Assembly: GCF_020510665.1 (NCBI RefSeq)
Contig: NZ_CP075187.1
Coordinates: 826,501-890,500, forward strand
DNA: 64,000 nt
Source: Dechloromonas denitrificans
Lineage (GTDB): Bacteria; Pseudomonadota; Gammaproteobacteria; Burkholderiales; Rhodocyclaceae
Direction of reading: 5' to 3'
Positions 18,723 to 43,140 of the stretch are shown piece after piece (the first letter of the stretch is position 1; every line of letters starts with the position of its first letter). Below the pieces are notes generated by a model that did no database searches, had not been told where the DNA came from, and saw only the letters and a program-made list of their open reading frames with translations. The position numbers and the translations under genes were made by a program.

Positions 18723-18746
18723 AAATGGCACCTTGCGGTGCCATTT
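18723..18746. terminator. Terminator hairpin, left half of IS copy 2 target duplication
   Basis: A TGGCACC/GGTGCCA stem flanked by AAA and TTT lies directly against the left inverted repeat of the IS. The identical 24 bp recur at 20348-20371 on the other side, so this is a 24-bp direct repeat that is itself a palindrome. It still offers a hairpin terminator to the PP2C gene, though only three T precede the IS end. Confidence 0.85.
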
Positions 18747-20347
18747 CAGACTGCTGACGAACCCCCGATTTTTCGGGGGGTTTGTTTTTCTGGTTGGAAA
18801 TCAGGGAGACTCCTGGCTTCAAGCCGAAGCGAGGCGGATTCTGAAATTCAGGTTAGGAACCCCGATCTGCCAAAGATGGCGGGCGAATGGGGCGGCAAAA
18901 CGGGTTCGTGCGAGGATTTTGGCCAATAAGGCTGCCGCCTTGCGGGCCAGCAACAGGGCCATCTTCTTCATGTTCTGACAGGCCGCCGAGAGCAGGCACT
19001 GCGCTTGCACCTTGGCCAAGCCACGGAAACGGGCGTAACGGTGGCCGTGCAACTCCTTGGCATCGGCAAAACTGCGCTCCACCGTTTCCTTGCGCCGGGC
19101 GTACAGCCGTTTGCCCAGGTCGCTCAGGCGATTGGCGTTGATCGCTTCCTTGAAACCTTCCCAGAGATGTCGGGTCACGAGCTTCTGATGGTTCCGGCTC
19201 TGCGTGCATTGCCCGCGCACGCCGCAATCGGCACACCGCGCCGGGTTCGAGGCGTATTCGCGATAACCCAGCCGGTTGGTCGTCCGGTACGGTAGAACCT
19301 CCCCGGCCGGGCAGCGGTAGCAGTCCTGGACCGCATCGTAGAGATAGTCCCGTTTGTAGAAATAGCCATCGCGGTGTGTGGGTCGCTTGTAGCCCATCAC
19401 CCCGAACAGTGCCCGCTCGAGGAGGCCCTTGCAGACTTGCGGGGTGAAATACCCGGCATCCAGCCCGACGGCGCCCACGGCCAGATCAAAGCGCTCCATG
19501 ACCCGATCCAGGCGGGCAAGGTAGGGCTGGCTGTCATGGACATTGCCCGGCGTGACATGGGTATCGACGATCAAAGCATGCACGCCATCGACAGTCCGGT
19601 GATCCAGATAGAAGAAGCCGGTCGGCTTGTTGTCGCGGGCCATGAAACCTGCGTCGGGATCGACCGTGCTGACCTTGACCTCCTTCATCGGCGGTGTCGA
19701 ATCATCGTCATCACGCTTGAGCGACTTCTTGCCCGCGGCGGCTCGGTCCGTTTCGATGGCTGCATCCAGTTCGGCCAGGTAGGCCGCAGGGGTTTGCTCG
19801 ACCTGATGCACTTCAAAGTGCCGCTTGTTCGCGTTCGCCTTCAGGTGGGTACTGTCGGTGTACAGCACCCGCCCGCCAATCAGCTTGTGCTCAATGGCTT
19901 GCTCGACAATCCCGTCAAAGATGCGTTGCTCAATGTCCGTCCCGACAAAGCGGCGACGGCGATTCTGCGACAGCGTCGAGGCATCCGGCACTTTGTCCGT
20001 CAGTCGAAAGCCGAGAAACCAGCGGTAAGCCACATTGACCTCTATTTCCTTCACCAGCCGTCGCTCGGAGCGAATCCCGAACAAGTAGCCAATGAACAAC
20101 ATCTTGAACAACACCACCGGATCAATCGCTGGTCGGCCATTGTTCTCGCAATACAGGTGCTGGGTCGCTTCACGAATGAAATCAAACCGGATGTGCTGGT
20201 CGAGCAGCCGGAGCCAGTGGTCTTTCGGGACCAATTGCTCCAACGTCACCATCTCCAGTTCCGTTTGGGCAGGGTAGGCAGGTTTGAGCATGCCTGCATT
20301 ATAAAAAATAAAGCCCCCAATCGCTTGGAGGCTTTGTCAGCGGTCTG
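18747..20347 (-). mobile_element. IS1182-like insertion sequence, copy 2 (complete, 1601 bp)
   Basis: Terminal inverted repeats are CAGACTGCTGAC on the left (18747) and, read inward from the right end (20347), CAGACCGCTGAC. A single transposase gene occupies most of the element. Inside the left end is a C5/G6 hairpin with T-rich tail (18760-18787) that terminates the transposase transcript. Inside the right end a short AAAGCC/GGCTTT hairpin may shield it from outside transcription. A 24-bp direct repeat flanks the element and consists of a whole rho-independent terminator. The element is nearly identical to copies 1 and 3. Confidence 0.95.
18819..20291 (-). CDS. IS1182-like DDE transposase (copy 2)
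   Basis: A 490-residue transposase. The N-terminal region (MLKPAYPAQTELEM to about 115) is the DUF772-type domain. The catalytic core has Asp146 in TDSTH, Asp278 in GLDAGY and Glu405 in VERSFADAKE. Between the last two lies a cysteine group (CYRCPAG, CADCGVRGQC) typical of this family. No internal stop or frameshift is present, so it may be active. It differs from copy 3 at only a few residues (for example Ala5/Val and Trp26/Leu). The long plus-strand frames over it are antisense shadows. Confidence 0.95.
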   Translation of the reverse strand: MLKPAYPAQTELEMVTLEQLVPKDHWLRLLDQHIRFDFIREATQHLYCENNGRPAIDPVVLFKMLFIGYLFGIRSERRLVKEIEVNVAYRWFLGFRLTDKVPDASTLSQNRRRRFVGTDIEQRIFDGIVEQAIEHKLIGGRVLYTDSTHLKANANKRHFEVHQVEQTPAAYLAELDAAIETDRAAAGKKSLKRDDDDSTPPMKEVKVSTVDPDAGFMARDNKPTGFFYLDHRTVDGVHALIVDTHVTPGNVHDSQPYLARLDRVMERFDLAVGAVGLDAGYFTPQVCKGLLERALFGVMGYKRPTHRDGYFYKRDYLYDAVQDCYRCPAGEVLPYRTTNRLGYREYASNPARCADCGVRGQCTQSRNHQKLVTRHLWEGFKEAINANRLSDLGKRLYARRKETVERSFADAKELHGHRYARFRGLAKVQAQCLLSAACQNMKKMALLLARKAAALLAKILARTRFAAPFARHLWQIGVPNLNFRIRLASA

Positions 20348-20375
20348 AAATGGCACCTTGCGGTGCCATTTTTTC
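20348..20375. terminator. Terminator hairpin, right half of IS copy 2 target duplication
   Basis: The same TGGCACC/GGTGCCA stem-loop as at 18723-18746, followed by six T. It lies between the IS right end and the 3' end of rhlE and can terminate rhlE transcription on the minus strand (A tract on the other side). Confidence 0.85.
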
Positions 20376-20378
20376 GTC

Positions 20379-21887
20379 TTACTTGCGTCCGAGGCCGCCG
20401 AGTAGGGCGGCAACGACTCGACGCGGCTTATGCGGGTCGGGTTTGGCCGGGGCCTGCGCCGAGTCTGGTACTTCGCCGCGGGGCGAGATTTCCTCGTACG
20501 GCTTGCTGAAGTCGAAACCGTCGGATGCAATCATCGGGTTGCGGCGGGCCGGGCGGCGTTCGCTGCGTTCGGCTCGCTCGTAACGTTCGCTACGCTCCGG
20601 CTTGTGGGCCAGCGGGGCCTTGCTCGGTGCAGCCGACGGGCGTTTTTTCTTGTTGCCCGGCGGGTATTCGTATTCTGCTTCTGGTTCAAAGCCAACGACT
20701 TCAACCTGTTCGATCGGGCGCTTGATCAGCTTCTCGATATCGACCAGGTAACCGACTTCGTGGGCGCTGACCAGCGAGATGGCATTGCCGCTCTTGCCGG
20801 CACGGCCGGTCCGGCCGATGCGGTGTACGTAGTCTTCCGGCGTGTGCGGCAGTTCGTAGTTGATCACATAGGGCAGGTCATCGACATCGAGGCCGCGCGC
20901 CGCGACGTCGGTCGCGATCAGGGCGTGCGTCTGGCCGGCCTTGAAGGCGTCGAGTGCCTTGATCCGGTCGAGCTGGCTCTTGTCGCCGTGAATCGCATCG
21001 GCCTGGATGCCGGCGCGTTGCAGTTCGCGGGTCAGTCGTGAGCAGCCCTGCTTGGTGCGCATGAACACGATGCACTGGCGGATTTCACCGGATTTCAGCA
21101 GCTTGGTCAGCAGGCCGCGCTTGCCGTATTCCGAAACCGGGTGCACGCGGTGCGTGATGGTGTCGGAAACCTGGTTGCGGCGGGCCACTTCGATCAGTAC
21201 CGGCGAGCGCAGCATGCTGTCGGCCAGTTTCTTGATTTCTTCCGAGAAGGTGGCCGAGAACAGCAGGCTCTGGCGCTGCTGCGGCAGCATGTTGAGAATG
21301 CGCGTTACATCGGGCACAAAACCCATGTCGAGCATACGGTCGGCTTCGTCGAGCACCAGCGCCTGAACCGAACTGAAGCTGACACTTTTGTTTTCAACGT
21401 GGTCGAGCAGTCGACCGGGGGTGGCGACCAGGATTTCGACGCCTTTTTTCAGTTCGGCGATCTGCGGCTTGATATCGACACCGCCGAAGGCGCACATCGA
21501 GCGCAGGTGGGTGTGCTTGCTGTAGGCCTTGACCGACTCGAAGACTTGCAGCGCCAGTTCGCGGGTTGGCGCGAGGATCAGGGCGCGTACCGGGTGCTTG
21601 GCTGGCGATGGGCTGCTTGACGCGAAGGGCAGGATGCGCTGCAGGATGGGCAGCGTGAAGGCGGCCGTCTTGCCGGTGCCGGTCTGGGCGCCGCCCATGA
21701 TGTCCTGGCCGCGGATGACCAGCGGGATGGCCTGGGCCTGGATTGGCGTAGGTTTGGTATAGCCTTCGTCGAGTACGGCGCGCAGCAGTTCGGGCGCGAG
21801 GCCAAGATCGGCGAAGGTGATTTCGGGGGCGGCTTCGGCAGCCGGGGTGCTGGCAAGGTCGCCAGCTAACGTATTGATTTCAGACAT
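20379..21887 (-). CDS. rhlE: DEAD-box ATP-dependent RNA helicase RhlE-type
   Basis: Cytoplasmic RNA helicase for ribosome assembly and RNA turnover. The 502-residue protein shows the Q motif (FADLGLAPELLRAV...PTPIQAQAIP), Walker A in AQTGTGKTAAF, VLDEADRMLDMGF (DEAD box), FSATF (motif III), and the C-terminal helicase motifs ATDVAARGLDVDDL and HRIGRTGRAGKSG. After residue 400 is a basic, low-complexity tail rich in Arg, Lys and Ser. The ATG at 21887 lies 8 nt after a TATAAT and has no Shine-Dalgarno, so the message may be leaderless. Its terminator carries the IS copy 2 duplication. Confidence 0.93.
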   Translation of the reverse strand: MSEINTLAGDLASTPAAEAAPEITFADLGLAPELLRAVLDEGYTKPTPIQAQAIPLVIRGQDIMGGAQTGTGKTAAFTLPILQRILPFASSSPSPAKHPVRALILAPTRELALQVFESVKAYSKHTHLRSMCAFGGVDIKPQIAELKKGVEILVATPGRLLDHVENKSVSFSSVQALVLDEADRMLDMGFVPDVTRILNMLPQQRQSLLFSATFSEEIKKLADSMLRSPVLIEVARRNQVSDTITHRVHPVSEYGKRGLLTKLLKSGEIRQCIVFMRTKQGCSRLTRELQRAGIQADAIHGDKSQLDRIKALDAFKAGQTHALIATDVAARGLDVDDLPYVINYELPHTPEDYVHRIGRTGRAGKSGNAISLVSAHEVGYLVDIEKLIKRPIEQVEVVGFEPEAEYEYPPGNKKKRPSAAPSKAPLAHKPERSERYERAERSERRPARRNPMIASDGFDFSKPYEEISPRGEVPDSAQAPAKPDPHKPRRVVAALLGGLGRK

Positions 21888-21895
21888 GGGGCCGT

Positions 21896-21901
21896 ATTAT
21901 A
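21896..21901 (-). promoter_or_regulatory. Candidate -10 element of rhlE
   Basis: TATAAT on the minus strand ends 8 nt before the rhlE ATG, placing the predicted transcript start at or next to the start codon. A -35 hexamer is not evident. Confidence 0.4.
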
Positions 21902-22089
21902 CGCCTAGCCGGGGCCGAGTACCCGGATGTGTCCAGTGTGCATTTTGGGGGCGTCTCCCGGCTGTCTGGGGGCCTCAGTCGGGGTTGCCGCTCAATTGCC
22001 CGCCAATTCAGCTATCCAGGCAATTGCTTGCCGGCATTTTGGCGCCAGGGATAGCGTTGACCGCGACCCTCCGGCGGGGGGAATCGCGA

Positions 22090-22452
22090 TCACAGGTCGG
22101 CGATCAGTTCTTCCAGCCGCTGTCGATTAATTGGTTTGACCAGGATGTTGTCGAAGCCATAGGCCAGGAAACGCTCTCGTTCTTCCGGAAAAGCATGAGC
22201 CGTGTAGGCAATGATGTGCAGTGGGCGGTCACCCTGCATGGCACGCAGGCGCGTGCAGGTTTCTTCGCCGGAAATGCCCGGCATGCTGATGTCGAGCAGA
22301 ACCAGGCTGAAATTGTTTTGTCCGGCAAGTATCAGTGCGGTTTCGCCATTGTCTGCCTCTAGCGGACTCCAGCCCAGTTTCTTGAGCAGGGTGGTGGCGA
22401 GCAGTCGGTTGGTCGGGTGGTCATCGACGACCAGTGCGTTGCGATCAGCCAT
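22090..22452 (-). CDS. Single-domain response regulator (CheY-like receiver)
   Basis: A 120-residue phosphoreceiver with the acidic pair Asp10-Asp11 in LVVDDHP, the phosphoacceptor Asp54 in LVLLDISMPG, and the conserved Lys in ILVKPI. There is no output domain, so it must act by protein contact or in a phosphorelay. The start ATG at 22452 lies inside the last codons of the upstream sensor kinase, overlapping by 8 nt, which makes that kinase the obvious partner. Homologous receivers are often fused to such kinases as hybrid proteins; here it is detached. The 190 bases between this gene and rhlE show no gene. Confidence 0.9.
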   Translation of the reverse strand: MADRNALVVDDHPTNRLLATTLLKKLGWSPLEADNGETALILAGQNNFSLVLLDISMPGISGEETCTRLRAMQGDRPLHIIAYTAHAFPEERERFLAYGFDNILVKPINRQRLEELIADL

Positions 22453-24982
22453 GGATTGGCTCCAGGGGAAAGTGCAGGGTAAAGGTTGAACCGGTGCCGA
22501 CGGTTGAGTCGAGTGTAACCCGTCCACCCATGTGCTCGACGAGTTGCTTGACGATGGCCAGGCCCAATCCGGTGCCGCCGTGTTCCCGGGTCAAAAAGGT
22601 TTCGAGTTGCTTGAATTTTGCGAAAATGACTTCGCGACTTTCCGGCGGAATGCCGGGGCCGGTGTCGGTGATGGCGAAGGTGATTTCGTGCTCGTCACGG
22701 TTGACGGAAAGTGTGATGCTGCCGTGTTCGGTGAATTTGATGGCGTTGTTCAACAGGTTGTTGAGCAACTGACGCAGGCGGGTTGGGTCGGTGCGCAGCG
22801 ATTCCGGCAGGTTGTCGGCCAGTTGCATCCCCAGTTTCAGCCCCTTGGCGGCAGCCGGGTTGTGGTGCACCGCGACGCAGTCGCTGACGAACGTTGCCAG
22901 CGAGGTATTGGTCCAGTTGAAGGTCATTTCGCCGGATTCGATCTTGGCCAGGTCGAGGATGTCGCCGACCAGCGTCAGAAGGTGTTCTCCGCTCTGGTGA
23001 ATGATGTTGGCGTACTCCTGCTGATCAGGGTCGTCGAGTTCCGATTTGAGCAGCTCGGCAAAACCCAGGATGCCATTCAGCGGGGTGCGCAGTTCGTGCG
23101 ATACCGTGGCCAGGAACGCGGATTTGAGGCGGCTGGCCTCTTCGGCCTTTTCCTTCGCTTCTTCCAGGCGCAGGAAGGATTCTTCGACCGAGTCGGCCAT
23201 GTTGTTGAATGAACGTGCCAGTTCGCCCATTTCATCGGCTGAGCGTGCCTCCAGGCGATGCTTGAGATCGCCGCTCTGGAAGGCGTGGATGCCGGTGATC
23301 ATGCCGGTGATGCGTCGTGTCAGCAGGTTGGCCATCCAGATGGCAATGGCAATGACGAGGATGGTCATCAGCAGGGTCGACCCCCACAGGCCGATTGCGG
23401 TCGAGGTCAGGCTGGACTTGATGCCGTCGAGCATCTCGCCTTGCTGGCTTTTGAAGCTGGCATCCTTTTCGGCGACCAGCGCATTGATCTTGCCAGCGGT
23501 TTCGGTCGCCGCCTTGTGGAAGTCGTCGACATTCGCACCAATCGTGACAAAGCCGAATCCTTGCGGTGTCTTGCCATACTGGCCGGTGTAGTAGGGGATC
23601 GCAGCGGCTGTAGTCAGTTTCCACAGGCCTGAGAAGAAAATGACGAAAGAGCCCGAACCGCCGTGTTCCGTGACGGCATTCCAGCCATCACATTGCGGTG
23701 AGAAGTTGAGGTAGCGACAATCCAGTCCGACGGTTCCCGCCTTGACCAGTTCCTTGGCCGGTTTGCGCTTCAGGTTCTGGTCGCGGAAAGGCGGTACGTC
23801 GGCCAGAAACTCATCGGAGGGTTTGCCACTGGCTTGCCATTCTTCGTAGAGTTGCTGATCCATCCAGGGCGTTGCCGGACGACCGGTCTCGGCGTCGTAG
23901 CCGACAATCATGTAATCCCGCGGATGCGAAATCGAGCGACTCTTGTAGTCCCAAATAAAGGCGTAATTGCCCTTGATGGCATCGGCGATCGGCGTGTAGC
24001 GCTCTTCGGTCGGCATCAGGCGGTCTGAGAACTGGCGAATGTGATCGTGATCGAGAGCCAGCGTGACGTAGCCGCTGATCTGCCCGTTTCTGACGACCGG
24101 CATGGCCCAGCGGACAATGCCCCGGAAACGCTTGCCAGCCGGGTTTTCAGTGCCGGCGTAGGCCGATTCCTCCGGCGTGAACGGCTTGCCGGCTTTTTCC
24201 AGTGCTGCAGGAAGGTAAGGGCCGATGGCCTGGGTCGGGACGTAGGCGCCGATGACATCCGAGACGTAGATTTCACCCGGCTTGAGTTTTTTCAGTTCGG
24301 CAAAGTAGTTTTCTGCCTTGACGAAGGTGTTCTTGCGGTCGACAACGTTTTTCAGCTGTTTTTCAGTCAGATTGCCGCGCGTTACCTTGATTTTTTCCTG
24401 GCCGTTGAGATCGACGAAGGTCATTTCAACAAAAATCGGCCGGTTTTCCTGCTCGCCAAAGTATTCCGGTGCGCGGGTGTGAAAATCCTTGGCATTGTCC
24501 GGCAGGATGGGCCGTGTCACCTTGGCTTCGCAGACGACCGGTTTTTCCGGCACCCATGATTTGCCATCTGCGGCAAGTATCCATTTGGCGTGCTGGAAGA
24601 GGGGGCGGTTGCGATCGGCCAGGAAGCGGCGGAAGGCCCCTTCTGACGGTTCCATGCCGGCGGCGATCTGGATGTCACGGTCACGGTCGTAGAGGAAATC
24701 GGCAATTTCCTTGGCCGCATCGGTCGTCAGGGCTTCGATTGCCTCGCGCGAACGCAGGTCCAGTGCGCGAATCGAGTCGTCGGTGACCGTCTGGCCAACG
24801 GCCTTGATGCTCGACAGCATCGCGTCGGCCATGCTGCCGGCTTTGATCGAGACGTCGGCGCCCAATTGCTGGGCGGCATGCCAGGCGAACCAGGCAAGCA
24901 AAATCAGGGGTACAACCTTGATCAGGACGAAAATCGCGATCAGTTTGCCGCGAATGCCAATCAAAAAGGCGGGTAGCTTCAC
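22445..24982 (-). CDS. Membrane sensor histidine kinase with large periplasmic domain
   Basis: An 845-residue two-component sensor. A first membrane helix at about 10-35 (IAIFVLIKVVPLILLAWFAW) is followed by a periplasmic region of roughly 480 residues, probably Cache-like. Then come a second membrane helix (LLMTILVIAIAIWMANLL), a HAMP linker, a HisKA phosphoacceptor in TVSHELRTPLNGILGFAELL and a HATPase domain with DTGPGIPPES and GGTGLGLAIVKQL. The start is chosen at the GTG at 24982, 8 nt after GGAGG; the frame is open much further upstream over the lipoprotein gene but that part is not protein-like. It overlaps the receiver gene. The ligand cannot be told from sequence alone. Confidence 0.88.
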   Translation of the reverse strand: MKLPAFLIGIRGKLIAIFVLIKVVPLILLAWFAWHAAQQLGADVSIKAGSMADAMLSSIKAVGQTVTDDSIRALDLRSREAIEALTTDAAKEIADFLYDRDRDIQIAAGMEPSEGAFRRFLADRNRPLFQHAKWILAADGKSWVPEKPVVCEAKVTRPILPDNAKDFHTRAPEYFGEQENRPIFVEMTFVDLNGQEKIKVTRGNLTEKQLKNVVDRKNTFVKAENYFAELKKLKPGEIYVSDVIGAYVPTQAIGPYLPAALEKAGKPFTPEESAYAGTENPAGKRFRGIVRWAMPVVRNGQISGYVTLALDHDHIRQFSDRLMPTEERYTPIADAIKGNYAFIWDYKSRSISHPRDYMIVGYDAETGRPATPWMDQQLYEEWQASGKPSDEFLADVPPFRDQNLKRKPAKELVKAGTVGLDCRYLNFSPQCDGWNAVTEHGGSGSFVIFFSGLWKLTTAAAIPYYTGQYGKTPQGFGFVTIGANVDDFHKAATETAGKINALVAEKDASFKSQQGEMLDGIKSSLTSTAIGLWGSTLLMTILVIAIAIWMANLLTRRITGMITGIHAFQSGDLKHRLEARSADEMGELARSFNNMADSVEESFLRLEEAKEKAEEASRLKSAFLATVSHELRTPLNGILGFAELLKSELDDPDQQEYANIIHQSGEHLLTLVGDILDLAKIESGEMTFNWTNTSLATFVSDCVAVHHNPAAAKGLKLGMQLADNLPESLRTDPTRLRQLLNNLLNNAIKFTEHGSITLSVNRDEHEITFAITDTGPGIPPESREVIFAKFKQLETFLTREHGGTGLGLAIVKQLVEHMGGRVTLDSTVGTGSTFTLHFPLEPIHG

Positions 24983-25020
24983 AATCACTCCTCCACGGGC
25001 TACCGCAACGCTGCCGCGCC

Positions 25021-25413
25021 CTAGTGTTTGCTGGCGCCTTTCTCGGCGCTCTTTTCTGGTTCCTTGGCCGTCTCGGGCGAATCCGCCTCTTCGCTGGCCG
25101 GCGCTTTTTTCTTCTTTTTGGCTGCGCCGGGCGGATCTGCCGGCGGCAGTTGCGGCGCGATGGTTTCTATCTTGTTCTCGCGCATATATTCGTCCATCTC
25201 GCGCCAGCCACCGTACACACTGGCTTTGGGCAGCCAACTGTAGATTGAATAGCAATCCTCGATGGCTCGGCCGGAATGCCGGCAGGCGCTGCCGACAGCC
25301 TTGCCTTCGGCTTCTTTTTTGGCCGGATCTTCCAATCCCAGTTTCTGATTGACCTGATCGCAGCCGGCAAGAGCCAGAAGTAGCGTGGTGGCGAGAAAAA
25401 TGCGCTTGATCAT
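25021..25413 (-). CDS. Small putative lipoprotein
   Basis: A 130-residue protein beginning MIKRIFLATTLLLALAGC, a lipoprotein signal with lipobox LAGC (Cys18). The mature part has three further cysteines region-wide (SACRHSG, DCYSIYSW) and ends in a Lys/Ala/Glu-rich low-complexity tail. I use the ATG at 25413 rather than the one six codons upstream because it begins the signal sequence. It lies 38 nt upstream of the sensor kinase start on the same strand, so it may share its transcript and act in signal sensing. I do not recognise a family. Confidence 0.75.
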   Translation of the reverse strand: MIKRIFLATTLLLALAGCDQVNQKLGLEDPAKKEAEGKAVGSACRHSGRAIEDCYSIYSWLPKASVYGGWREMDEYMRENKIETIAPQLPPADPPGAAKKKKKAPASEEADSPETAKEPEKSAEKGASKH

Positions 25414-25505
25414 GGGCAGATTCTCGCACATTGTCAGCGGATTTGGCCAACCGCCGACCGTGGTGCCGACGTTATAATTATCCCTTTATGCTTACTGGAG
25501 TTTTC

Positions 25506-27550: not shown

Positions 27551-27616
27551 TTTTCTCCGGCGTTTGTTTTCTAATGCAACTCAGGGAAAACGCCCGATCT
27601 TCTGGAGGAGCCAGTC

Positions 27617-27973: not shown

Positions 27974-27995
27974 TTTGCCGCAGGCATGCACGAAG

Positions 27996-28023
27996 AACCC
28001 GCCCCCCGGCGGGTTTTTCTTTT
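27996..28023 (+). terminator. Rho-independent terminator
   Basis: AACCCGCC pairs with GGCGGGTT around CCC and is followed by TTTCTTTT. It separates the small secreted protein gene from alaS. Confidence 0.85.
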
Positions 28024-28068
28024 AAAATCGACGGTTTCGAATTCAATGCCATTTAGGGCCGACAGCTT

Positions 28069-34883: not shown

Positions 34884-35311
34884 TGCAGCGTGTGCGGAAT
34901 CGACTCAGCCATGGCTTGATGGCCGTCGTCGGCCGCCGAGGCGTGGCGGCTGACCATGCGCCAGCCATGGGCACCCAGCGTGTAGACGTGGGTGACATAG
35001 AGCGGGCCGTGCGGGCTTGGGTCGTCGCCGACATAAAGCACTTCGGTCAGATGATGAATGGCCATCACCGAGCCCTGCCAGTGAGTTAGTTGTTCGGCTT
35101 CGACGCGCAGCTTGGCATTGCCGAAAATGCTGCGCCAGCTTTCGCGGATCGGCACCACGCCTTGCAAGCGGACGCCGGTCGGATGAATGCAGATGGTTTC
35201 TTCGTCCTCGGCCCAGAGCAACATCATCAGGTCGGCATCGCCCTTGGTCAGTGCTTCGTAGAAAGCCTGCTCGACATCTTCGGGTGAGGCATAAGCGACG
35301 GGTTTGCTCAT
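34880..35311 (-). CDS. NTF2-like/SnoaL fold protein
   Basis: A 143-residue protein with the compact cone-shaped NTF2-like fold, as suggested by EDVEQAFYEALTKGDADLMM, WAEDEETICIHPTG, the strand VMAIHHLTEVLYV and the final WRMVSRHASA. The ATG at 35311 overlaps the waaF stop and replaces an upstream in-frame start that would lie inside waaF. The function of such stand-alone proteins (DUF4440-like) is not known. Confidence 0.8.
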   Translation of the reverse strand: MSKPVAYASPEDVEQAFYEALTKGDADLMMLLWAEDEETICIHPTGVRLQGVVPIRESWRSIFGNAKLRVEAEQLTHWQGSVMAIHHLTEVLYVGDDPSPHGPLYVTHVYTLGAHGWRMVSRHASAADDGHQAMAESIPHTLH

Positions 35312-36333: not shown

Positions 36334-36341
36334 GCGGTGAA

Positions 36342-36360
36342 GGCGGGCTTTTGGCCCGCC
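36342..36360 (-). other. GC-rich hairpin in front of waaF
   Basis: GGCGGGC pairs with GCCCGCC around a four-base loop, 8 nt before the waaF ATG. It lacks a T tract on the minus strand, so it may modulate translation or processing between the zinc-finger gene and waaF rather than terminate. Confidence 0.4.
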
Positions 36361-36366
36361 GCCCGT

Positions 36367-36555
36367 TTAGTGATGGCCCTTGGGCGCTTCGCCCTTGAAA
36401 ACGTACTGGGTGCTGCAATACGGGCAGGTTACTTCGCCGCTTTTCAGTACGTCGAGAAAGACGCGCGGATGCAGGCCGGCCAGTGCTGCGCCCGGTTGCG
36501 GGCAGTGCAGCGGCAGGTCGTGTGCGGTGACTTCAACGGTGGTCTTGTCGGACAT
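36367..36555 (-). CDS. CHCC-type zinc-finger protein
   Basis: A 62-residue protein with the ligand pattern Cys18, His29, Cys44, Cys47 (HCPQPG, GLHPRVF, CPYC). This pattern matches the zf-CHCC family related to the NDUFS6 subunit of complex I. It ends in a basic stretch EAPKGHH. It lies 15 nt downstream of ilvE on the same strand. The role in bacteria is not established. Confidence 0.88.
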   Translation of the reverse strand: MSDKTTVEVTAHDLPLHCPQPGAALAGLHPRVFLDVLKSGEVTCPYCSTQYVFKGEAPKGHH

Positions 36556-36570
36556 CGAAAACTCCCTGAT

Positions 36571-37491
36571 TTATACGTAAGCCAGCCAGCCGTCGTGTTC
36601 GGCGGAACGGCCGTACACCACGTCGAAATACTTGGCCTGGATGCGGGTGGTCAGCGGGCCGCGCTTGCCGATGCCGATCTGACGGCCATCGAGTTCGCGA
36701 ATCGGCGTGACTTCAGCGGCGGTGCCGGTGAAGAAGGCTTCGTCGGCGGTATAGACTTCGTCGCGGGTGATGCGCTTTTCGCAGACTTCGAGGCCCATTT
36801 CAGCGGCCAGTTGCAGCACGGTGGCGCGCGTGATGCCTTCCAGGCACGAGGTCAGGTCCGGCGTGTACAGCTTGCCCTTCTTGACGATGAACAGGTTCTC
36901 GCCAGCACCTTCGGCGACATAGCCTTCCGGGTCGAGCAGCATGGCTTCGTCGTAACCGTCGTTGGTCGCTTCGTTATTGGCCAGGATCGAGTTGATGTAG
37001 TGGCCGCAAGCCTTGGCGCGAACCATGGAAATATTCACATGGTGGCGGGTGAAGCTGGAGGTCTTGACGCGAATGCCGCGTTCCATGCCTTCTTCGCCGA
37101 GGTAAGCACCCCACGGCCAGGCGGCGATGGCGATGTGTACCTTGGCACCCTTCGGCGAAACGCCGAGCTTTTCGGAGCCGTAGAAGGCGATCGGGCGGAT
37201 GTAGCCGGATTCGAGGTTGTTGGCGCGGATGACTTCCTTGTGCGCTTCATTGACTTCGTCGCGCGTGAAGGGCATCTGCATCTGGAAAATGTGTGCCGAG
37301 TTGAACAGGCGGTCGGTATGGTCTTCGAGGCGGAAAATGGCGGTGCCTTTTTCCGTCTTGTACGCACGTACGCCTTCAAAAACGCCCATGCCGTAATGCA
37401 GGGAGTGGGTGAGGACGTGGGTGGTGGCTTCACGCCAGGGCACCAGTTTGCCGTCTTGCCAGATAAATCCGTCGCGATCCGCCATCGACAT
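36571..37491 (-). CDS. ilvE: Branched-chain amino acid aminotransferase
   Basis: PLP enzyme for the last step of Leu, Ile and Val synthesis. The 306-residue class IV aminotransferase has GVFEGVRAYKTEKGTAIFRL near the start and KACGHYINSILANNEA with the PLP lysine. It also has GYVAEGAGENLFIVKKGKL and a C-terminal TGTAAEVTPIRELDGRQIG. Length and motifs are normal. It is the first gene of its strand segment, diverging from the Nudix gene, with about 90 bases between. Confidence 0.96.
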   Translation of the reverse strand: MSMADRDGFIWQDGKLVPWREATTHVLTHSLHYGMGVFEGVRAYKTEKGTAIFRLEDHTDRLFNSAHIFQMQMPFTRDEVNEAHKEVIRANNLESGYIRPIAFYGSEKLGVSPKGAKVHIAIAAWPWGAYLGEEGMERGIRVKTSSFTRHHVNISMVRAKACGHYINSILANNEATNDGYDEAMLLDPEGYVAEGAGENLFIVKKGKLYTPDLTSCLEGITRATVLQLAAEMGLEVCEKRITRDEVYTADEAFFTGTAAEVTPIRELDGRQIGIGKRGPLTTRIQAKYFDVVYGRSAEHDGWLAYV

Positions 37492-37581
37492 GCTTGATTC
37501 TCCGTAATGCGCTCGTAAAAGCCCATAATTCTAGCCGAAATCAGTGGGTAAAATAACGCCTTTGCCGATAGAGTCGTTGCC

Positions 37582-38028
37582 ATGATCTGGAAACCCAATG
37601 TCACCGTTGCTGCTGTCATTCAGCGCGACGGCAAGTTCCTGCTGGTCGAGGAGGAAACCGAAGCCGGGCTGGCCTTCAACCAGCCGGCCGGACACCTTGA
37701 AGAGGGTGAGGCACTGATTGATGCCGTGGTTCGCGAAACGCTCGAAGAAACGGCCTACCACTTCAAGCCGACACATCTGGTCGGGATCTACAACTGGAAA
37801 CATCCGACCAAGGATGTGACCTACCTGCGTTTTGCGTTTGGCGGTGAATTGCGCGGCTTCGAGGCCGAGCGCAAGCTCGATGACGGGATTGTTGCTGCGC
37901 GCTGGCTGACGCTTGATGAAATCAAGGCAACGCAGGCGCGGCATCGCAGCCCGCTGATCCTGCGCTGCGTCGAGGATCAGCTCGCCGGAAAATCGTATCC
38001 GCTCGATCTGCTGGTGCATTACGCCTGA
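37582..38028 (+). CDS. nudJ: Nudix hydrolase, NudJ-like
   Basis: A 148-residue pyrophosphatase. The Nudix box runs from GHLEEGEALIDAVVRETLEE (about residues 36-55), matching Gx5Ex7REUxEE. NudJ enzymes hydrolyse thiamine pyrophosphate precursors and nucleoside triphosphates. In many betaproteobacteria a Nudix gene of this type precedes mnmA, as here with one gene between. Its stop overlaps the start of the following exported-protein gene (TGATG). Confidence 0.92.
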   Translation: MIWKPNVTVAAVIQRDGKFLLVEEETEAGLAFNQPAGHLEEGEALIDAVVRETLEETAYHFKPTHLVGIYNWKHPTKDVTYLRFAFGGELRGFEAERKLDDGIVAARWLTLDEIKATQARHRSPLILRCVEDQLAGKSYPLDLLVHYA

Positions 38029-38579
38029 TGAAGTCCTGGCTGCTTGCGCTGCTGTTTTGCTGCGGCTCGCTGCTGGCCGAGGAAAAGGTGCAACTTTGCT
38101 ACGGTTACGGTTGTCTGGTGCAGGCTGAAATTCGCTACGGCGATGCGCAGTTGAGTGAAATTGATCGCACCTTGCGTGCTGCGGTCGACGCTGAAAACGA
38201 GCGCGAATTGCTCGCTGGCGTCATCGGACAACTGTACGCCTGGGCCGGCGAGCAATCAGATCTCCGCAATGATCGCGGTGGCAACTATGCCGATGCCGGC
38301 GTGTCGGGCAAGATGGATTGCATCGATCATTCGACGTCGACCACCCGCTTGCTGCAACTGCTTGAAGCGCGTGGTGATTTGCGCTGGCACCATGTTGCAG
38401 CTATCGAGATGCGTCGCTGGGCGTTCGTTTTTCCGGCGCATTACTCGGCCGTGATTGAAATGCCGGGTGAGGGTGATGGCCGCCACTTTGTGGTCGATAG
38501 CTGGTTTGTTGATAATGGACAACCCGCGGTGATCCTGCCGCTGGATGAATGGAAGAAGGGGGCTGGGCCCGATGTCTGA
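38028..38579 (+). CDS. Exported protein with possible Cys-His-Asp site
   Basis: A 183-residue protein with a short signal peptide ([19 protein letters not shown]). The mature part contains [15 protein letters not shown] (Cys98), [10 protein letters not shown] (His138) and [11 protein letters not shown] (Asp157), in the order and spacing expected of a papain/transglutaminase-like fold. This is inference; I do not recognise a named family. It sits between nudJ and mnmA with overlaps on both sides (mnmA starts 8 nt before its stop), so it is part of that operon. Confidence 0.8.
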
Positions 38580-39669
38580 AAAAACTGTAGTGGTCGGCTT
38601 GTCCGGCGGTGTCGATTCCTCCGTGGCGGCCTTGTTGCTGAAACAGCAAGGCTGGAAGGTGATCGGCCTGTTCATGAAGAACTGGGAAGACGACGACACC
38701 GAGGAATACTGTTCGTCGCGTCAGGATTTGATCGACGTGATGAGCGTTGCCGACCGGATCGGCATCGATGTCGAGGTGGTCAATTTCGCCGCTGAGTACC
38801 GCGAGCGCGTTTTTGCCGAATTCCTGCGCGAATACCAGGCCGGGCGGACGCCGAATCCGGACATCCTGTGCAATTCCGAAATCAAGTTCAAGGCCTTCCT
38901 CGATCACGCCATGAAGCTGGGTGCCGACAAGATTGCCACCGGGCATTACGCCGGGGTGCGCGAATTCAATGGCGAGTTTCAGTTGCTCAAGGCCGAGGAT
39001 GGCACCAAGGACCAGAGTTATTTTCTCTATCGGCTGAATCAGGGGCAGTTGTCGAAGACACTGTTCCCGCTGGCCGATCTTTACAAGCGTGACGTACGCA
39101 AGATTGCCGAAGCGGAGAATCTGCACGTGGCTGCGAAGAAGGATTCGACCGGCATCTGTTTCATCGGCGAACGTCCGTTCAAGGATTTTCTCAGCCGCTA
39201 CCTGCCGCCCAAGCAGGGCGAAATCCGCCGTCTCGATGACGGCAAGGTGCTTGGCCAGCACGATGGCCTGATGTACCACACCCTCGGCCAGCGCAAGGGT
39301 TTGCATATCGGTGGCCTGAAAGAGAAAGGGCAGCCGGGCGGCGGCGATCACGATGCCTGGTTTGTCGCTGGCAAGGATATGGAAAAGAACGTGCTCTACG
39401 TCGTTCAGGGCCACGATCATCCGGCCTTGCTCAAGGAAAGCCTGGTTGCCGAGCAGCTTTCCTGGGTGTCCGGGCAGGCACCGCACACGCATTGGGTGTA
39501 CACCGCCAAGCCGCGTTACCGGACTTCCGACCAGCCTTGCGAGGTCGACCGCGTCGATGGCGAAAGCTGTGAAATCCGCTTTGCCGAAGCGCAGTGGGCG
39601 CTGACCCCGGGGCAGTCGGTGGTGCTCTATGAAAGCCGGGTCTGTCTCGGCGGCGGGATCATTCGCTGA
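38572..39669 (+). CDS. mnmA: tRNA 2-thiouridylase MnmA
   Basis: Puts the 2-thio group on U34 of tRNA-Glu, -Gln and -Lys. The 365-residue protein has the ATP PP-loop [11 protein letters not shown], the first catalytic Cys in [11 protein letters not shown] and the second in [12 protein letters not shown], plus GHYAGV and [12 protein letters not shown] start at the ATG at 38572, since the upstream part of the frame lies in the previous gene. A 14-bp perfect stem-loop follows its stop. Confidence 0.97.
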
Positions 39670-39672
39670 TTG

Positions 39673-39716
39673 AATTTGAGGCGTACTGTCGATATTTCTG
39701 TCGTACGCCTCAAATT
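39673..39716. other. Long perfect stem-loop after mnmA
   Basis: AATTTGAGGCGTAC and GTACGCCTCAAATT form a 14-bp perfect stem around a 16-nt loop (TGTCGATATTTCTGTC). There is no T tract after it on the plus strand. It could be a 3' stabilising or pausing hairpin, or a binding palindrome. The rest of the interval to 39938 has no gene I can support. Confidence 0.7.
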
Positions 39717-39938
39717 CTGTAAAGAGTTGTAGTTTCCTGCCCGCGAGCCGGGCTGCATGGCGCTCTGTTTTTCATTTTATTTCATTGGGTTACGACTTTT
39801 TGTCGTGCGCAATGTGGCGGGCTGGCCGGTTTGCCTATTTGTTGGGGGGTGAACATAATCCGCTCCCATTCCGGCTGACTCTTCCCTGTTGGGTTCTGAT
39901 CCAAACAAGCAGCCTTTGCCATCTCCGAAGGAATCATC

Positions 39939-40517
39939 ATGTCGATCTCTATTTTGCGTCGCCAAATTTCAATCTCGGCTGCAGTGCTCGGCCTGTTGTT
40001 GATTGGCGGTTGTGCCACGGCACCGTTGCCGCCGGCCAAGGTGACGCTGGCCGTTGCCCAGACCGAACGCGGCGTCATGGTCTGGTTGCCCGACACCGTG
40101 CTCTTCGAGTTCGGCAAGGCATCGCTTGATCTGACCGAGGCCGCGCCTTATCTCGATCGGGTGGCTCAGCTTCTACGGGAAAAATCGAGCGCCGATCTGT
40201 TGCTTGAGGGGCATACCGACAATGTCGGTGCGGCAGCATTCAACCAGGCGTTGTCGCAGCGCCGGGCCGATGCGGTGCGCGATGCTCTGCTGACGCGTGG
40301 CGTGCCGCAGGGCCGCATGAAATCGGTCGGTGTGGGCTTGAGCAAACCGCTGGCGCCCAACGATACGGAAACCGGGCGCAAGCTCAATCGTCGGGTTGAA
40401 ATCATTCTGCTCGGCGAAAAGCTTGAGAATCTGGTGCGCGGCGAACCTGACAATGCCTTCGAGCAGGCTTTCGACCGCCTCAAGCGTTTGCTTGAACAGC
40501 CGCAGAGCAAAGGCTGA
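39939..40517 (+). CDS. OmpA-family peptidoglycan-associated lipoprotein
   Basis: A 192-residue outer-membrane lipoprotein. The signal ends in the lipobox LIGGC at about residues 21-25. The C-terminal OmpA domain (about 55-165) binds peptidoglycan, with the key segments LLLEGHTDNVGAAAFNQALS, QRRADAVRDALLTRGV and NRRVEIIL. A short tail follows the domain. It lies 9 nt upstream of a patatin gene, so the two are probably co-transcribed. Confidence 0.9.
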   Translation: MSISILRRQISISAAVLGLLLIGGCATAPLPPAKVTLAVAQTERGVMVWLPDTVLFEFGKASLDLTEAAPYLDRVAQLLREKSSADLLLEGHTDNVGAAAFNQALSQRRADAVRDALLTRGVPQGRMKSVGVGLSKPLAPNDTETGRKLNRRVEIILLGEKLENLVRGEPDNAFEQAFDRLKRLLEQPQSKG

Positions 40518-40526
40518 TCCTGAGCC

Positions 40527-41441
40527 ATGGAAAATCGTCAGGAAGACTTCTCGCCATTACGCCGCCGTTTGCTGGGCGCTTCGCTGGCCGGAGGCATGTT
40601 GGCTTCGCCGCTCGATGTCTTGGCGCAAAGTGGCGCATTGCCTGAAAAGCGTCGCTTGGCGGTGGTGCTGGGTGGCGGTTCGGCGCGCGGGTTTGCCCAC
40701 ATCGGCGTGATCAAGGCGCTTGAGGCAGGCGGTATCCGGCCGGACCTGATTGTCGGCTGCAGCGCCGGCAGTTTGATCGGTGCATTCTGGGCGGCCGGTT
40801 TTTCCGGCGTTCAGATGGAAGAGCTGGCGATGCGGGTCAAGGACAGCGAAATTGTCGATTTGGTCAATGGCCCGACGCAGCAACGAGGCATGGTGACGGG
40901 CAAAAGCCTGCACGCTTTCGTCAATCAGTTACTTCAGAACCGTGCCCTCGAATCGCTTAAAACGCCATTTGCGGCCGTTGCCACGCAATATCCTGGTGGC
41001 GAGCTGGCGGTTTTCAACAAGGGTGATACCGGTTTTGCGGTGCGTGCCTCGTGCTCGATTCCCGGTGTGTTCATTCCGGCCAGCCTGGATGGTCAGGAGT
41101 ATCTGGATGGCGGTCTGGTCAGCCCCTTGCCGGTGTCGACGGCCCGCAAGCTGGGGAGCGATCTGGTGGTGGCGGTCGATGTCGGTGGATTCGACCCGGC
41201 TGGAGACGATGGACATGGCTTGTACAACTTGTTGCTGCGCTCATTCGAGATCATGGGACAGGCATTGCGCAAGCGTGAAGCCGCCGATGCGGATATCGTC
41301 ATTCGCCCTGAAGTCAGCCGTATTTCAAGCACCGATTTCTCGGCCCGCAGGACCCTGATTGCGATGGGGCAGCAGGCCGGGGCTCGTCTCTTGCCCGTGA
41401 TCCGGGAAAAAATGGCCATGCCTGTGCGTCGGCGCGGCTGA
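40527..41441 (+). CDS. Patatin-like phospholipase, RssA-type
   Basis: A 304-residue serine lipid hydrolase. The N-terminus has a Tat-like signal (LRRRLLGASLAGGMLASP), suggesting export. Catalytic features are the oxyanion glycines in VVLGGGSARGFAHIG, the nucleophile Ser79 in VGCSAGSLIG and the dyad Asp in YLDGGLVSPLPV. It follows the OmpA-like lipoprotein gene by 9 nt, pointing to an envelope role. Its 3' terminator was the target of IS copy 3. Confidence 0.9.
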   Translation: MENRQEDFSPLRRRLLGASLAGGMLASPLDVLAQSGALPEKRRLAVVLGGGSARGFAHIGVIKALEAGGIRPDLIVGCSAGSLIGAFWAAGFSGVQMEELAMRVKDSEIVDLVNGPTQQRGMVTGKSLHAFVNQLLQNRALESLKTPFAAVATQYPGGELAVFNKGDTGFAVRASCSIPGVFIPASLDGQEYLDGGLVSPLPVSTARKLGSDLVVAVDVGGFDPAGDDGHGLYNLLLRSFEIMGQALRKREAADADIVIRPEVSRISSTDFSARRTLIAMGQQAGARLLPVIREKMAMPVRRRG

Positions 41442-41498
41442 TTGTTTTTACGTTGATTTCTGCGGTGATTCCCCGGTTGACCGCAGCAGGATTGAAAA

Positions 41499-41515
41499 AG
41501 GCGCCGTTGGCGCCT
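41499..41515. terminator. Terminator hairpin, left half of IS copy 3 target duplication
   Basis: A GGCGCC-GTT-GGCGCC stem-loop with an A tract before it and a single T before the IS left inverted repeat. The same 17 bp recur at 43117-43133. The T tract has been separated from this hairpin by the insertion. Confidence 0.85.
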
Positions 41516-43116
41516 CAGACTGCTGACGAACCCCCGATTTTTCGGGGGTTTTGTTTTTCTGGTTGGAAATCAGGGAGACTCCTGGCTTCAAGCCGAAGCG
41601 AGGCGGATTCTGAAATTCAGGTTAGGAACCCCGATCTGCCAAAGATGGCGGGCGAATGGGGCGGCAAAACGGGTTCGTGCGAGGATTTTGGCCAATAAGG
41701 CTGCCGCCTTGCGGGCCAGCAACAGGGCCATCTTCTTCATGTTCTGACAGGCCGCCGAGAGCAGGCACTGCGCCTGCACCTTGGCCAAGCCACGGAAGCG
41801 AGCGTAACGGTGGCCATGCAACTCCTTGGCATCGGCAAAGCTGCGCTCCACTGTTTCCTTGCGCCGGGCGTACAGCCGTTTGCCCAGGTCGCTCAGGCGA
41901 TTGGCGTTGATCGCTTCCTTGAAACCTTCCCAGAGATGCCGGGTCACGAGCTTCTGATGGTTCCGGCTCTGCGTGCATTGCCCGCGCACGCCGCAATCGG
42001 CACACCGCGCCGGGTTCGAGGCGTATTCGCGATAACCCAGCCGGTTGGTCGTCCGGTACGGTAGAACCTCCCCGGCCGGGCAGCGGTAGCAGTCCTGGAC
42101 CGCATCGTAGAGATAGTCCCGTTTGTAGAAATAGCCATCGCGGTGTGTGGGTCGCTTGTAGCCCATCACCCCGAACAGTGCCCGCTCGAGAATGCCCTTG
42201 CAGACTTGCGGTGTGAAATACCCGGCATCCAGCCCGACGGCGCCCACGGCCAGATCAAAGCGCTCCATGACCCGATCCAGGCGGGCAAGGTAGGGCTGGC
42301 TGTCATGGGCATTGCCCGGCGTGACATGGGTATCGACGATCAAAGCATGCACGCCATCGACAGTCCGGTGATCCAGATAGAAGAAGCCGGTCGGCTTGTT
42401 GTCGCGGGCCATGAAACCTGCGTCGGGATCGACTGTGCTGACCTTGACCTCCTTCATCGGCGGTGTCGAATCATCGTCATCACGCTTGAGCGACTTCTTG
42501 CCCGCGGCGGCTCGGTCCGTTTCGATGGCTGCATCCAGCTCGGCCAAATAGGCCGCCGGCGTTTGCTCGACCTGATGCACCTCAAAATGCCGTTTGTTGG
42601 CATTCGCCTTCAGATGCGTGCTGTCCGTGTAAAGCACCCGCCCGCCAATCAGCTTATGCTCAATGGCTTGCTCGACAATCCCGTCGAAGATGCGTTGCTC
42701 AATGTCCGTCCCGACAAAGCGGCGACGCCGATTCTGCGACAGCGTCGAGGCATCCGGCACTTTGTCCGTCAGACGAAAGCCGAGAAACCAGCGGTAAGCC
42801 ACATTGACCTCTATTTCCTTCACCAGCCGTCGCTCGGAGCGAATCCCAAACAAGTAGCCAATGAACAACATCTTGAACAACACCACCGGATCAATCGCTG
42901 GTCGGCCATTGTTCTCGCAATACAGGTGCTGGGTCGCTTCACGAATGAAATCAAACCGGATGTGCTGGTCGAGCAGCCGGAGCAAGTGGTCTTTCGGGAC
43001 CAATTGCTCCAACGTCACCATCTCCAGTTCCGTTTGGGCGGGGTAGACAGGCTTGAGCATGCCTGCATTATAAAAAATAAAGCCCCCAATCGCTTGGAGG
43101 CTTTGTCAGCAGTCTG
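41516..43116 (-). mobile_element. IS1182-like insertion sequence, copy 3 (complete, 1601 bp)
   Basis: Same length and ends as copy 2: left end CAGACTGCTGAC at 41516 and right end at 43116 (inward CAGACTGCTGAC, a perfect match to the left end here). It is flanked by a 17-bp direct repeat that is itself a terminator stem-loop. It lies between the convergent patatin and GST genes, with the transposase on the minus strand, the same orientation as copies 1 and 2. It shows more silent differences from copies 1 and 2 around 42530-42640, which suggests recombination or an older split. Confidence 0.95.
41588..43060 (-). CDS. IS1182-like DDE transposase (copy 3)
   Basis: A 490-residue intact transposase with Asp146 (TDSTH), Asp278 (GLDAGY) and Glu405 (VERSFADAKE) and the cysteine group CYRCPAG...CADCGVRGQC. 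It differs from copy 2 at a handful of residues (Val5, Leu26, Ala251 and Ile290 here). No frameshift or premature stop, so it may be functional. A short hairpin terminator lies between its stop and the IS left end. Confidence 0.95.
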   Translation of the reverse strand: MLKPVYPAQTELEMVTLEQLVPKDHLLRLLDQHIRFDFIREATQHLYCENNGRPAIDPVVLFKMLFIGYLFGIRSERRLVKEIEVNVAYRWFLGFRLTDKVPDASTLSQNRRRRFVGTDIEQRIFDGIVEQAIEHKLIGGRVLYTDSTHLKANANKRHFEVHQVEQTPAAYLAELDAAIETDRAAAGKKSLKRDDDDSTPPMKEVKVSTVDPDAGFMARDNKPTGFFYLDHRTVDGVHALIVDTHVTPGNAHDSQPYLARLDRVMERFDLAVGAVGLDAGYFTPQVCKGILERALFGVMGYKRPTHRDGYFYKRDYLYDAVQDCYRCPAGEVLPYRTTNRLGYREYASNPARCADCGVRGQCTQSRNHQKLVTRHLWEGFKEAINANRLSDLGKRLYARRKETVERSFADAKELHGHRYARFRGLAKVQAQCLLSAACQNMKKMALLLARKAAALLAKILARTRFAAPFARHLWQIGVPNLNFRIRLASA

Positions 43117-43140
43117 AGGCGCCGTTGGCGCCTTTTTTTA
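43117..43140. terminator. Terminator hairpin, right half of IS copy 3 target duplication
   Basis: GGCGCC-GTT-GGCGCC followed by seven T. It adjoins the IS right end and overlaps the 3' end of the GST gene, which it serves on the minus strand only weakly. Confidence 0.85.

Follow-up and report, generated by a model that had tools for sequence, protein, structure and literature searches.

An IS1182-family insertion sequence of Dechloromonas denitrificans found at terminator-like hairpins, with a full copy of the hairpin on either side

Analysis of an insertion sequence (IS) present in 20 copies in the genome of Dechloromonas denitrificans revealed that each insertion had targeted a single terminator-like hairpin and left a full copy of this hairpin on either side of the element. 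A terminator-like hairpin was found at all 20 sites; exact direct repeats of 17-32 bp occur at 18 of them, each comprising the whole hairpin and centred within 1 nt, and the remaining two (L011 and L015) carry repeats with one to two mismatches. Taken as a whole, an explanation in which an IS1182-family element uses terminator hairpins as targets, transfers its strands to the feet of a cruciform and brings along inward-facing terminators appears quite probable to us.

Within the window, as we call the whole stretch of 64,000 nucleotides that was analysed, copies 2 and 3 of the element are bracketed by direct repeats of 24 bp (AAATGGCACCTTGCGGTGCCATTT) and 17 bp (AGGCGCCGTTGGCGCCT), respectively (Table 1), which confirmed the claim of a preliminary description, made from the window sequence, that both repeats are whole terminator hairpins. 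Copy 1, described there as ending at a terminator, is indeed followed directly by a hairpin, and an identical 32-bp hairpin adjoins its far end beyond the window (L010, exact repeat of 32 bp). The window copies make up two of the 20 genomic insertions, and the other 18 are of like kind. By eye, a TATAAT lies ahead of the transposase start of copy 2 and is overlapped by the tail of the hairpin at 20310..20335.

Table 1. Element copies, duplicated hairpins and inward-facing hairpins in the window.
Feature	Position	Strand	Remarks
IS copy 1, partial in the window; full copy is L010	1..924	-	transposase start near 868, estimated from the offset in copy 2
32-bp hairpin direct repeat adjoining copy 1; partner left of the window	925..956	.	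exact repeat in L010
24-bp terminator hairpin, left duplicate	18723..18746	.	CAGAC replaces the rest of its U-tract
IS copy 2, 1601 bp	18747..20347	-	ends CAGAC...GTCTG
Inward-facing terminator-like hairpin just within the transposase-downstream end of copy 2	18762..18779	+	CCCCCGATTTTTCGGGGG then GTTTGTTTTT
Transposase of copy 2, 490 aa, IS1182 family	18819..20291	-	NF033551, 472.4 bits (cut-off 270)
Inward-facing terminator-like hairpin just within the transposase-upstream end of copy 2	20310..20335	-	
24-bp terminator hairpin, right duplicate	20348..20371	.	+ strand U-tract retained
17-bp terminator hairpin, left duplicate	41499..41515	.	
IS copy 3, 1601 bp	41516..43116	-	
Transposase of copy 3, 490 aa	41588..43060	-	
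17-bp terminator hairpin, right duplicate	43117..43133	.	

Across the genome, the hairpin sequences vary from copy to copy and no common target sequence was seen, as had been proposed for the window; nor did a majority of non-palindromic sites emerge, all 20 lying in hairpins. In 20/20 cases every one of the repeat's seven outermost pairs was formed, in 17 untrimmed and in three after trimming by 1-2 nt (the left repeat copy was used for L011 and L015), and the chance level of the trimmed test at length 20 was 89 of 59,388 window positions. The axes of repeat and hairpin coincided at 17 of the 20 sites and were offset by 0.5-1 nt at the other three. That the duplication comprises the whole hairpin and varies in length with it, a further claim of the preliminary description, held over the 20 sites, where the lengths of G+C core and repeat gave a Pearson coefficient of 0.78; this figure is partly circular, as the search for the core started at the beginning of the repeat. 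The repeat edges are located within the A-T stem foot. We rejected a cut placed precisely at the palindrome end, because at many sites A-T pairs beyond the repeat are left out, so that the two ends do not simply coincide.

Comparison with the sister genome G031, which is IS-free (a search for the transposase gene gave no match), revealed a single hairpin at 19 of the 20 corresponding sites; empty sites already holding two hairpins were not found. The alignment covered the whole or nearly the whole stretch at 16 sites and was partial at L008, L010 and L013, covering only the left flank and the hairpin at L010, and for L004 the corresponding site was not recovered in this genome. At L011 and L015 the sister matches one of the two repeat copies, and the mismatches thus arose after insertion. 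These sites bear directly on two other readings. That both hairpins pre-date the insertion, or travel with the element, is refuted wherever the sister carries only one, and the hairpin sequences moreover differ from copy to copy; nothing was found in its favour, and we give this reading practically no weight. A replacement of the stem-loop as in IS1272, with the second hairpin acquired later, would be in keeping with the membership of IS1272 in the same family and its use of terminator hairpins (PMC4923244, PMC5678879), and all 20 own copies share with IS1272 an inverted-repeat or terminator target. However, IS1272 loses the hairpin, wholly or in part, and leaves no repeat, whereas the present element has the target hairpin on either side at 20/20 sites, and the sister has a single one at 19, which refutes replacement for the own-genome copies and makes it very improbable as an explanation.

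The family assignment rests on the transposase, whose NF033551 score lies well above the cut-off (Table 1) and which contains the Pfam domains DUF772, DDE_Tnp_1_6 and DDE_Tnp_1, and on the structure of the element, with 1601 bp, CAGAC[C/T]GCTGAC ends and one 490-aa transposase ORF. The layout of the IS1182 family comprises a single ORF, terminal inverted repeats and a size of 1.3-1.95 kb, and the element agrees with it. D146, D278 and E405 (P0001 numbering) are invariant across 12 aligned transposase sequences and represent a putative DDE catalytic triad. Structure prediction (A1, 12 sequences) reached a mean pLDDT of 52.9 and a pTM of 0.39, too poor for a fold search, and a sequence search of solved structures gave four weak, uninformative matches, the best of which (E 0.0093) was a ribosomal protein. 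Viral contigs yielded one candidate stretch and no confirmed relative. The element belongs to the IS1182 family and is, with good probability, a DDE transposon with intrinsic-terminator hairpins as targets.

Related elements were grouped into a clade defined here as CAGACTG-ended and hairpin-duplicating, the label being assigned by the element ends; its hosts belong to the Proteobacteria, Desulfuromonadales, Acidobacteria and Bacillota, and ISBspe1 and ISEfa7 are examples of its ISfinder entries. A hairpin adjoins 121 of 140 clade element ends; the corresponding figures are 40/2720 for control positions and 1/26 for element ends of distant relatives within the same genus. The 66 clade insertions with two sides available comprise 45 with exact repeats, 5 with near repeats and 16 with unlike flanks, and by the threshold used the latter have a hairpin on both sides in seven cases, on one side in seven and on neither in two (L207, L212). 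In G059 and one S. simulans plasmid different copies have hairpins in common, which in these two cases looks like recombination or misassembly, and L087 has an exact 13-bp repeat with no clear hairpin. Most of the insertions studied in this one clade of the family show the hairpin-duplicating pattern. In the transposase tree, from which three short translations (L085, L088, L201) were left out, 30/30 clade rows fell on one side of a branch with support 97/99, found in 96% of bootstrap trees; these rows include five insertions with unlike flanks (L086, L204, L206, L207, L208) and three with one flank only (L074, L076, L164). Neither the distantly related transposases in the genus (28-32% identical) nor further IS1182 loci were retained as hairpin targeters, those with clear ends having short repeats or none, and in the other IS1182-family clades scanned the repeats appeared by eye to be 0-6 bp.

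Landing on hairpins of differing sequence suggests recognition of folded DNA shape over sequence. The preliminary description had proposed recognition by "shape or symmetry"; the hairpin targets stood, but shape alone is insufficient, because an A/T tract flanks 20/20 targets and only 8 of 55 comparable window hairpins, by one measure for both. It was thus missing in 47/55 window hairpins and 0/20 targets, and both feet carry such tracts in 17/20 targets versus 3/55 window hairpins. An earlier comparison (20/20 targets versus 14/138 window hairpins), in which targets were measured from the repeat edge and the background from the stem edge, was rejected as favouring the targets. The A/T tracts, together with the fact that all 20 own repeats start with A and finish with T, would also fit a choice of A/T-rich, bendable DNA at gene ends, with the hairpin incidental and other insertions purged by selection. 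Selection against insertions within genes could indeed be the source of part of the terminator bias; however, it leaves hairpin-centred, hairpin-spanning repeats of 17-32 bp unexplained, and the near absence of hairpins at the ends of the distant relatives in the same genus also speaks against this choice, which we consider improbable.

As to the mechanism, we infer that the element most likely transfers its strands to the feet of a cruciform extruded at the target, and a cruciform substrate is suggested because the repeat is variable in length and centred on the hairpin. The palindrome would be extruded with the assistance of A/T-rich feet and of supercoiling around transcribed genes, and the two 3'-OH ends of the element would attack at the feet of the four-way junction, one on each of the opposite strands, at points that would be near each other at any stem length. 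Fill-in would then duplicate all DNA between the feet, and it is because everything between them is copied that the repeat length would track the hairpin. Alternatively, the transposase may attack a single-stranded hairpin, on the lagging strand at a fork or in an R-loop behind RNA polymerase at the terminator, instead of a duplex cruciform. Hairpins readily form on single-stranded DNA, and the targets are sites where transcription stops, but a symmetric duplication with element ends at both feet requires that both strands are cut, and we judge this course to be unlikely, if worth keeping in mind. The orientation of the transposase gene among the 20 copies is mixed (11 minus, 9 plus), which is neutral in this respect. 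For most DDE transposases the length of the target duplication is nearly fixed; a repeat length that tracks the hairpin, as strand transfer at cruciform feet would produce, points to DNA shape as the ruler.

The proposal that a hairpin is kept on both sides and the neighbouring genes are thereby spared was upheld in its first part only. The hairpin copy facing a gene retains its stem and loses more than half of its U-tract; tails of 10 nt with at least six T were present on one strand at 19/20 sites before insertion and 0/20 after, and on the other strand at 18 before and 0 after. With insertion at the cruciform feet, stem-loop and U-tract would come apart wherever the hairpin faces a neighbour gene. 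Inward hairpins were found at 57 of 66 element ends versus 28 of 1320 internal stretches, and inward hairpins with a U-tract at 47/66 ends versus 1/1320 stretches, the remaining 19/66 ends having none with a U-tract by the same measure. Lying 12-15 nt inside each end, these predicted terminators may restore termination for the neighbour genes, and may shield the transposase gene from read-through. Whether the clade as a whole targets the four-way junction that an extruded terminator forms, with the fold setting the duplication length and the inward terminators replacing the broken one so that insertion is near-neutral to the neighbours, we regard as evenly balanced.

The findings point to a way of landing that does little harm, in hosts both Gram-negative and Gram-positive and also on plasmids, and provide a natural setting in which cruciforms could be tested in cells as targets of transposition, as well as an annotation rule, a terminator on either side, for locating the ends of such elements. 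They also offer a possible reason for the wide span of repeats listed for the IS1182 family, 2-60 bp according to ISfinder as cited in PMC7335449, some members of which have palindromes as targets (Siguier 2015, as cited in PMC4923244 and PMC5678879). Terminator-linked insertion is further known from group IIC (bacterial C) introns, which insert just past rho-independent terminators and affect host genes to a limited degree; these are, however, RNA-based retro-elements without a transposase, and the available part of the account makes no mention of hairpin duplication (PMC8919778). IS1397, ISPpu9, ISPpu10 and others inserted in REP palindromes likewise have palindromic extragenic targets, but these are members of a repeat family, whereas no common sequence was seen among the targets here. 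In the accessible portions of the literature, ISfinder and Siguier 2015 aside, duplication of whole terminators was not found as an observed rule, which does not prove its absence.

The closest known system is IS1272/TnSha1 of staphylococci, a member of the same family whose targets are, according to the available sections of Furi et al. 2016 (PMC4923244) and Wan et al. 2017 (PMC5678879), inverted repeats with no shared sequence. Five of seven TnSha1 sites were confirmed as terminators by RNA-seq, with insertion at the hairpin foot as in the present element, although some older IS1272 copies have non-palindromic targets (PMC4923244, PMC5678879). The IS1272 transposase has 548 aa and the ends 16 bp (PMC5678879), compared to 490 aa and CAGAC...GTCTG ends here. 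Terminator targeting in the IS1182 family is thus already published, and the difference lies in the outcome: IS1272 deletes the hairpin wholly or partly and without target duplication (PMC4923244, PMC5678879), whereas here the entire hairpin is duplicated, an outcome drawn earlier as an alternative model, the hypothetical pathway b of Wan et al. 2017 (PMC5678879). The present model agrees with this drawing, which places strand transfer at the 5' feet of a cruciform, and the clade may represent the hairpin-duplicating pathway drawn, yet unseen, for IS1272.

The transposase encoded by the 1601-bp insertion sequence (IS) belongs to the IS1182 family (NF033551, 472.4 bits against a cut-off of 270), carries DUF772 and DDE domains in Pfam and has 20 matches of 96–100% identity in its own single-contig genome (3.457 Mb), of which the window covers positions 826501–890500. 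The 24-bp and 17-bp direct repeats that a preliminary description had reported around the two complete copies in the window were recovered at the positions given there. The terminator that holds copy 1 lies at one edge of a CRISPR/Cas9-like locus, in which a CRISPR-like array beside this copy is followed by a Cas9-like gene with Pfam matches to HNH_4 and RuvC_III.

Features of the window associated with the IS copies
Feature	Position	Strand	Details
IS copy 1	ends at 924		32-bp hairpin adjoins this end
CRISPR-like array	about 1049–4296		36-nt repeat; by eye
Cas9-like gene	about 5585–8917	-	1110 aa
IS copy 2	18747–20347		1601 bp; ends CAGAC...GTCTG; 24-bp flanking direct repeat
Inward terminator inside element end	18762–18779	+	generic terminator scan
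Likely transposase promoter region	20285–20335		TATAAT; by eye
Inward terminator inside element end	20335–20310	-	generic terminator scan
IS copy 3	41516–43116		1601 bp; ends CAGAC...GTCTG; 17-bp flanking direct repeat

Exact direct repeats of 17–32 bp were found at 18 of the 20 own-genome copies, while at the loci L011 and L015 the two copies of an 18-bp repeat differ by one and two mismatches, respectively. The seven outermost pairs were all formed in 20/20 repeats (the left copy was scored for L011 and L015; in the right copy of L015 the outer pairs no longer form), compared with a background of 89 of 59,388 window positions (0.15%) passing the same trimmed pairing test at length 20. The hairpin axis is exactly central in 17 repeats and displaced by 0.5–1 nt in three (L002, L003 and L018). 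Hairpin sequences vary among the sites, and every repeat begins with A and ends with T; its extent corresponds to the G+C stem plus about 1–5 A-T pairs at the foot, and at many sites further A-T pairs were available beyond the repeat, yet left out. At L016, a second element, IS3-like by eye, is nested in the IS copy (approximately 2980–4312 of the locus) at the TATAAT just before the transposase gene; the 25-bp hairpin repeat on the outside remains intact.

Comparison with G031, a close sister genome without any transposase match, revealed a single hairpin at 19 of the 20 joined sites. The alignment is complete or almost complete at 16 sites and partial at three, namely L008 (gappy left flank), L010, the full form of copy 1 (confined to the left flank and the hairpin), and L013 (right flank resuming about 1.4 kb further away); L004 was not recovered in G031, where its two flanks lie at separate places. 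Full-length matches to the joined site of L008 also occur in five other genomes (G038, G342, G346, G030 and G050). Thus, we concluded that insertion turned one hairpin into two, at any rate where the alignment is good (16 sites). For L011 and L015, one repeat copy matches the sister sequence, and the mismatches therefore post-date insertion.

The same arrangement recurs in a group of IS1182-family elements with CAGACTG-type ends, defined here as the clade. From 31 genome-contig loci, 17 at 60–94% identity were used; of the others, four repeat sites already represented by copies from genomes G010 and G059, and ten fragmentary loci were set aside. Relatives at 40–63% identity were drawn from plasmids. 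Hairpin repeats were found in Desulfuromonadales (27 bp), Rhizobium (20 and 23 bp), Providencia (19 bp), Salinivibrio (20 bp), Aminobacter (25 bp), Sphingobium (18 bp), Bacillus pumilus (28 bp), Bacillus subtilis (19 bp), Sutcliffiella (30 bp), Enterococcus (19–25 bp) and Staphylococcus simulans (27 bp). An adjacent hairpin is present at 121 of 140 element ends (74 insertions, own 20 included), against 40/2720 same-flank control positions and 1/26 ends of distant relatives; this count excludes repeat records of one site (L162, L214, L215), fragments L218–L222 and the partial copies L031, L043, L046 and L091, whose ends are hairpin-like by eye in four of five cases (L046 is the exception). Both flanks were available for 66 insertions, with 45 exact repeats (including L087, with only 13 bp and no clear hairpin), five near repeats and 16 unlike flanks, the latter showing an over-threshold hairpin on both sides in seven cases, on one side in seven and on neither in two (L207, L212). 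Hairpin-duplicating insertion is, almost certainly, real, general and informative.

Three hairpins are cyclically permuted among the G059 copies L023, L053 and L054, and one is common to L213 and L217 of S. simulans; either recombination between copies or misassembly would be expected to give this pattern. The S. simulans plasmid NZ_CP023496.1 (L211–L222) holds about eight element copies or fragments, one of which, L212, lies outside any hairpin and has, by eye, an apparent 5-bp repeat. L052, an internally deleted copy in G038, has an exact 17-bp repeat that forms only a weak hairpin (score 13.1, below threshold).

In a transposase tree of 47 rows, the 30 clade rows fall on one side of a branch supported by 97/99 and found in 96% of bootstrap trees; the neighbouring ISCfr1 and Thioclava elements, with short repeats, join with support of only 84/79. 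Elsewhere in the family, loci whose ends are of the kind GAGGCTGTGTGAAAAC seemingly have repeats of 0–6 bp, as judged by eye in a scan of 28 loci, some but not all with clear ends. A further subclade (L115, L117, L118 and L128; elements of 1735–1816 bp, transposases of 508–528 aa in the first three) has GAGGCTGTAGAAAAAC-type ends and a 3-bp AAC/GTT repeat, located in a site that, at least in L117, resembles the core of an integron attC, itself a folded target.

For target choice, perfect-stem window hairpins scoring at least as high as the weakest target on the same measure were collected from coding and intergenic DNA together, with IS copies and the CRISPR array masked, and an A/T tract was defined as a 10-nt stretch with at least six T following the stem or at least six A preceding it. 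Such a tract occurs on at least one side in 8/55 window hairpins and on both sides in 3/55, compared with 20/20 and 17/20 own-genome targets (Fisher p about 4e-12 and 4e-11). The earlier proposal that hairpins of unlike sequence are targeted holds, but recognition by shape or symmetry alone is not supported: judging by these tracts, the targets are terminators, mostly two-way, rather than any palindrome. This bias may reflect a preference of the enzyme, readier extrusion where the feet are A/T-rich, or the purging of insertions that fell in genes. Among the eight terminator-like window hairpins, three have tracts at both feet versus 17/20 targets, and on these small numbers a preference for two-way terminators is possible.

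It had also been suggested that the convergent neighbouring genes are spared by having a hairpin on each side of the element. The hairpin is indeed kept, but the A/T tract at its foot is cut through: CAGAC follows the copy next to the left gene, and GTCTG precedes the copy next to the right gene. Across the 20 own-genome sites, mean T content of the 10-nt tail on the two strands drops from 7.3 and 7.2 to 3.4 and 3.3, respectively, and tails with at least six T from 19/20 and 18/20 to 0/20 on both. A generic terminator scan of window positions 18600–20500 listed the right hairpin copy and not the left, together with the two inward-pointing terminators inside the element ends; it gave four sites versus 2.4 expected in shuffles, a result that is weak taken alone. 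Among 33 clade elements, some of them near-copies, a strong hairpin lies in the first 60 nt at 57/66 ends versus 28/1320 internal stretches, and a hairpin with an inward U-tract at 47/66 versus 1/1320; structure is kept while sequence is variable. It is plausible, judging from sequence, that these inward hairpins replace the terminator and restore the termination lost with the U-tract. They may also serve in transposition, because the hairpin upstream of the transposase gene has no clear U-tract in several proteobacterial elements and the terminal repeat itself forms one arm of the inward hairpin in Bacillus relatives. In the window, the likely transposase promoter overlaps the tail of an inward terminator, and transposase expression may thus hinge on this hairpin.

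DDE transposases join the two 3' ends of the element to the target, one to each strand, and the distance between the two points of joining, the stagger, becomes the repeat. A palindrome-centred stagger of 17–32 bp within one element would be hard to obtain on a straight duplex and natural on a folded-out palindrome, because its two feet would be adjacent whatever the stem length. Attack of the element ends on opposite strands at the two feet would then duplicate the whole hairpin and yield repeats of variable length, and we consider strand transfer at cruciform feet likely.

A repeat range of 2–60 bp for the family is attributed to ISfinder in PMC7335449. Furi et al. (PMC4923244) showed that TnSha1/IS1272 targets are hairpins, five of seven being confirmed as terminators by RNA-seq, and that insertion partially deletes the hairpin. 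Wan et al. (PMC5678879) assign to IS1272 a pathway a in which the stem-loop is lost, whereas the element studied here duplicates the whole hairpin and matches the product of their pathway b, presented there as a drawing only, in which attack at the 5' feet duplicates the whole stem-loop. The target class is already known and the duplication mode already predicted; the present analysis contributes 20 cases together with empty sites, a survey across the clade, the A/T tracts at the targets, and U-tract loss with its possible replacement.
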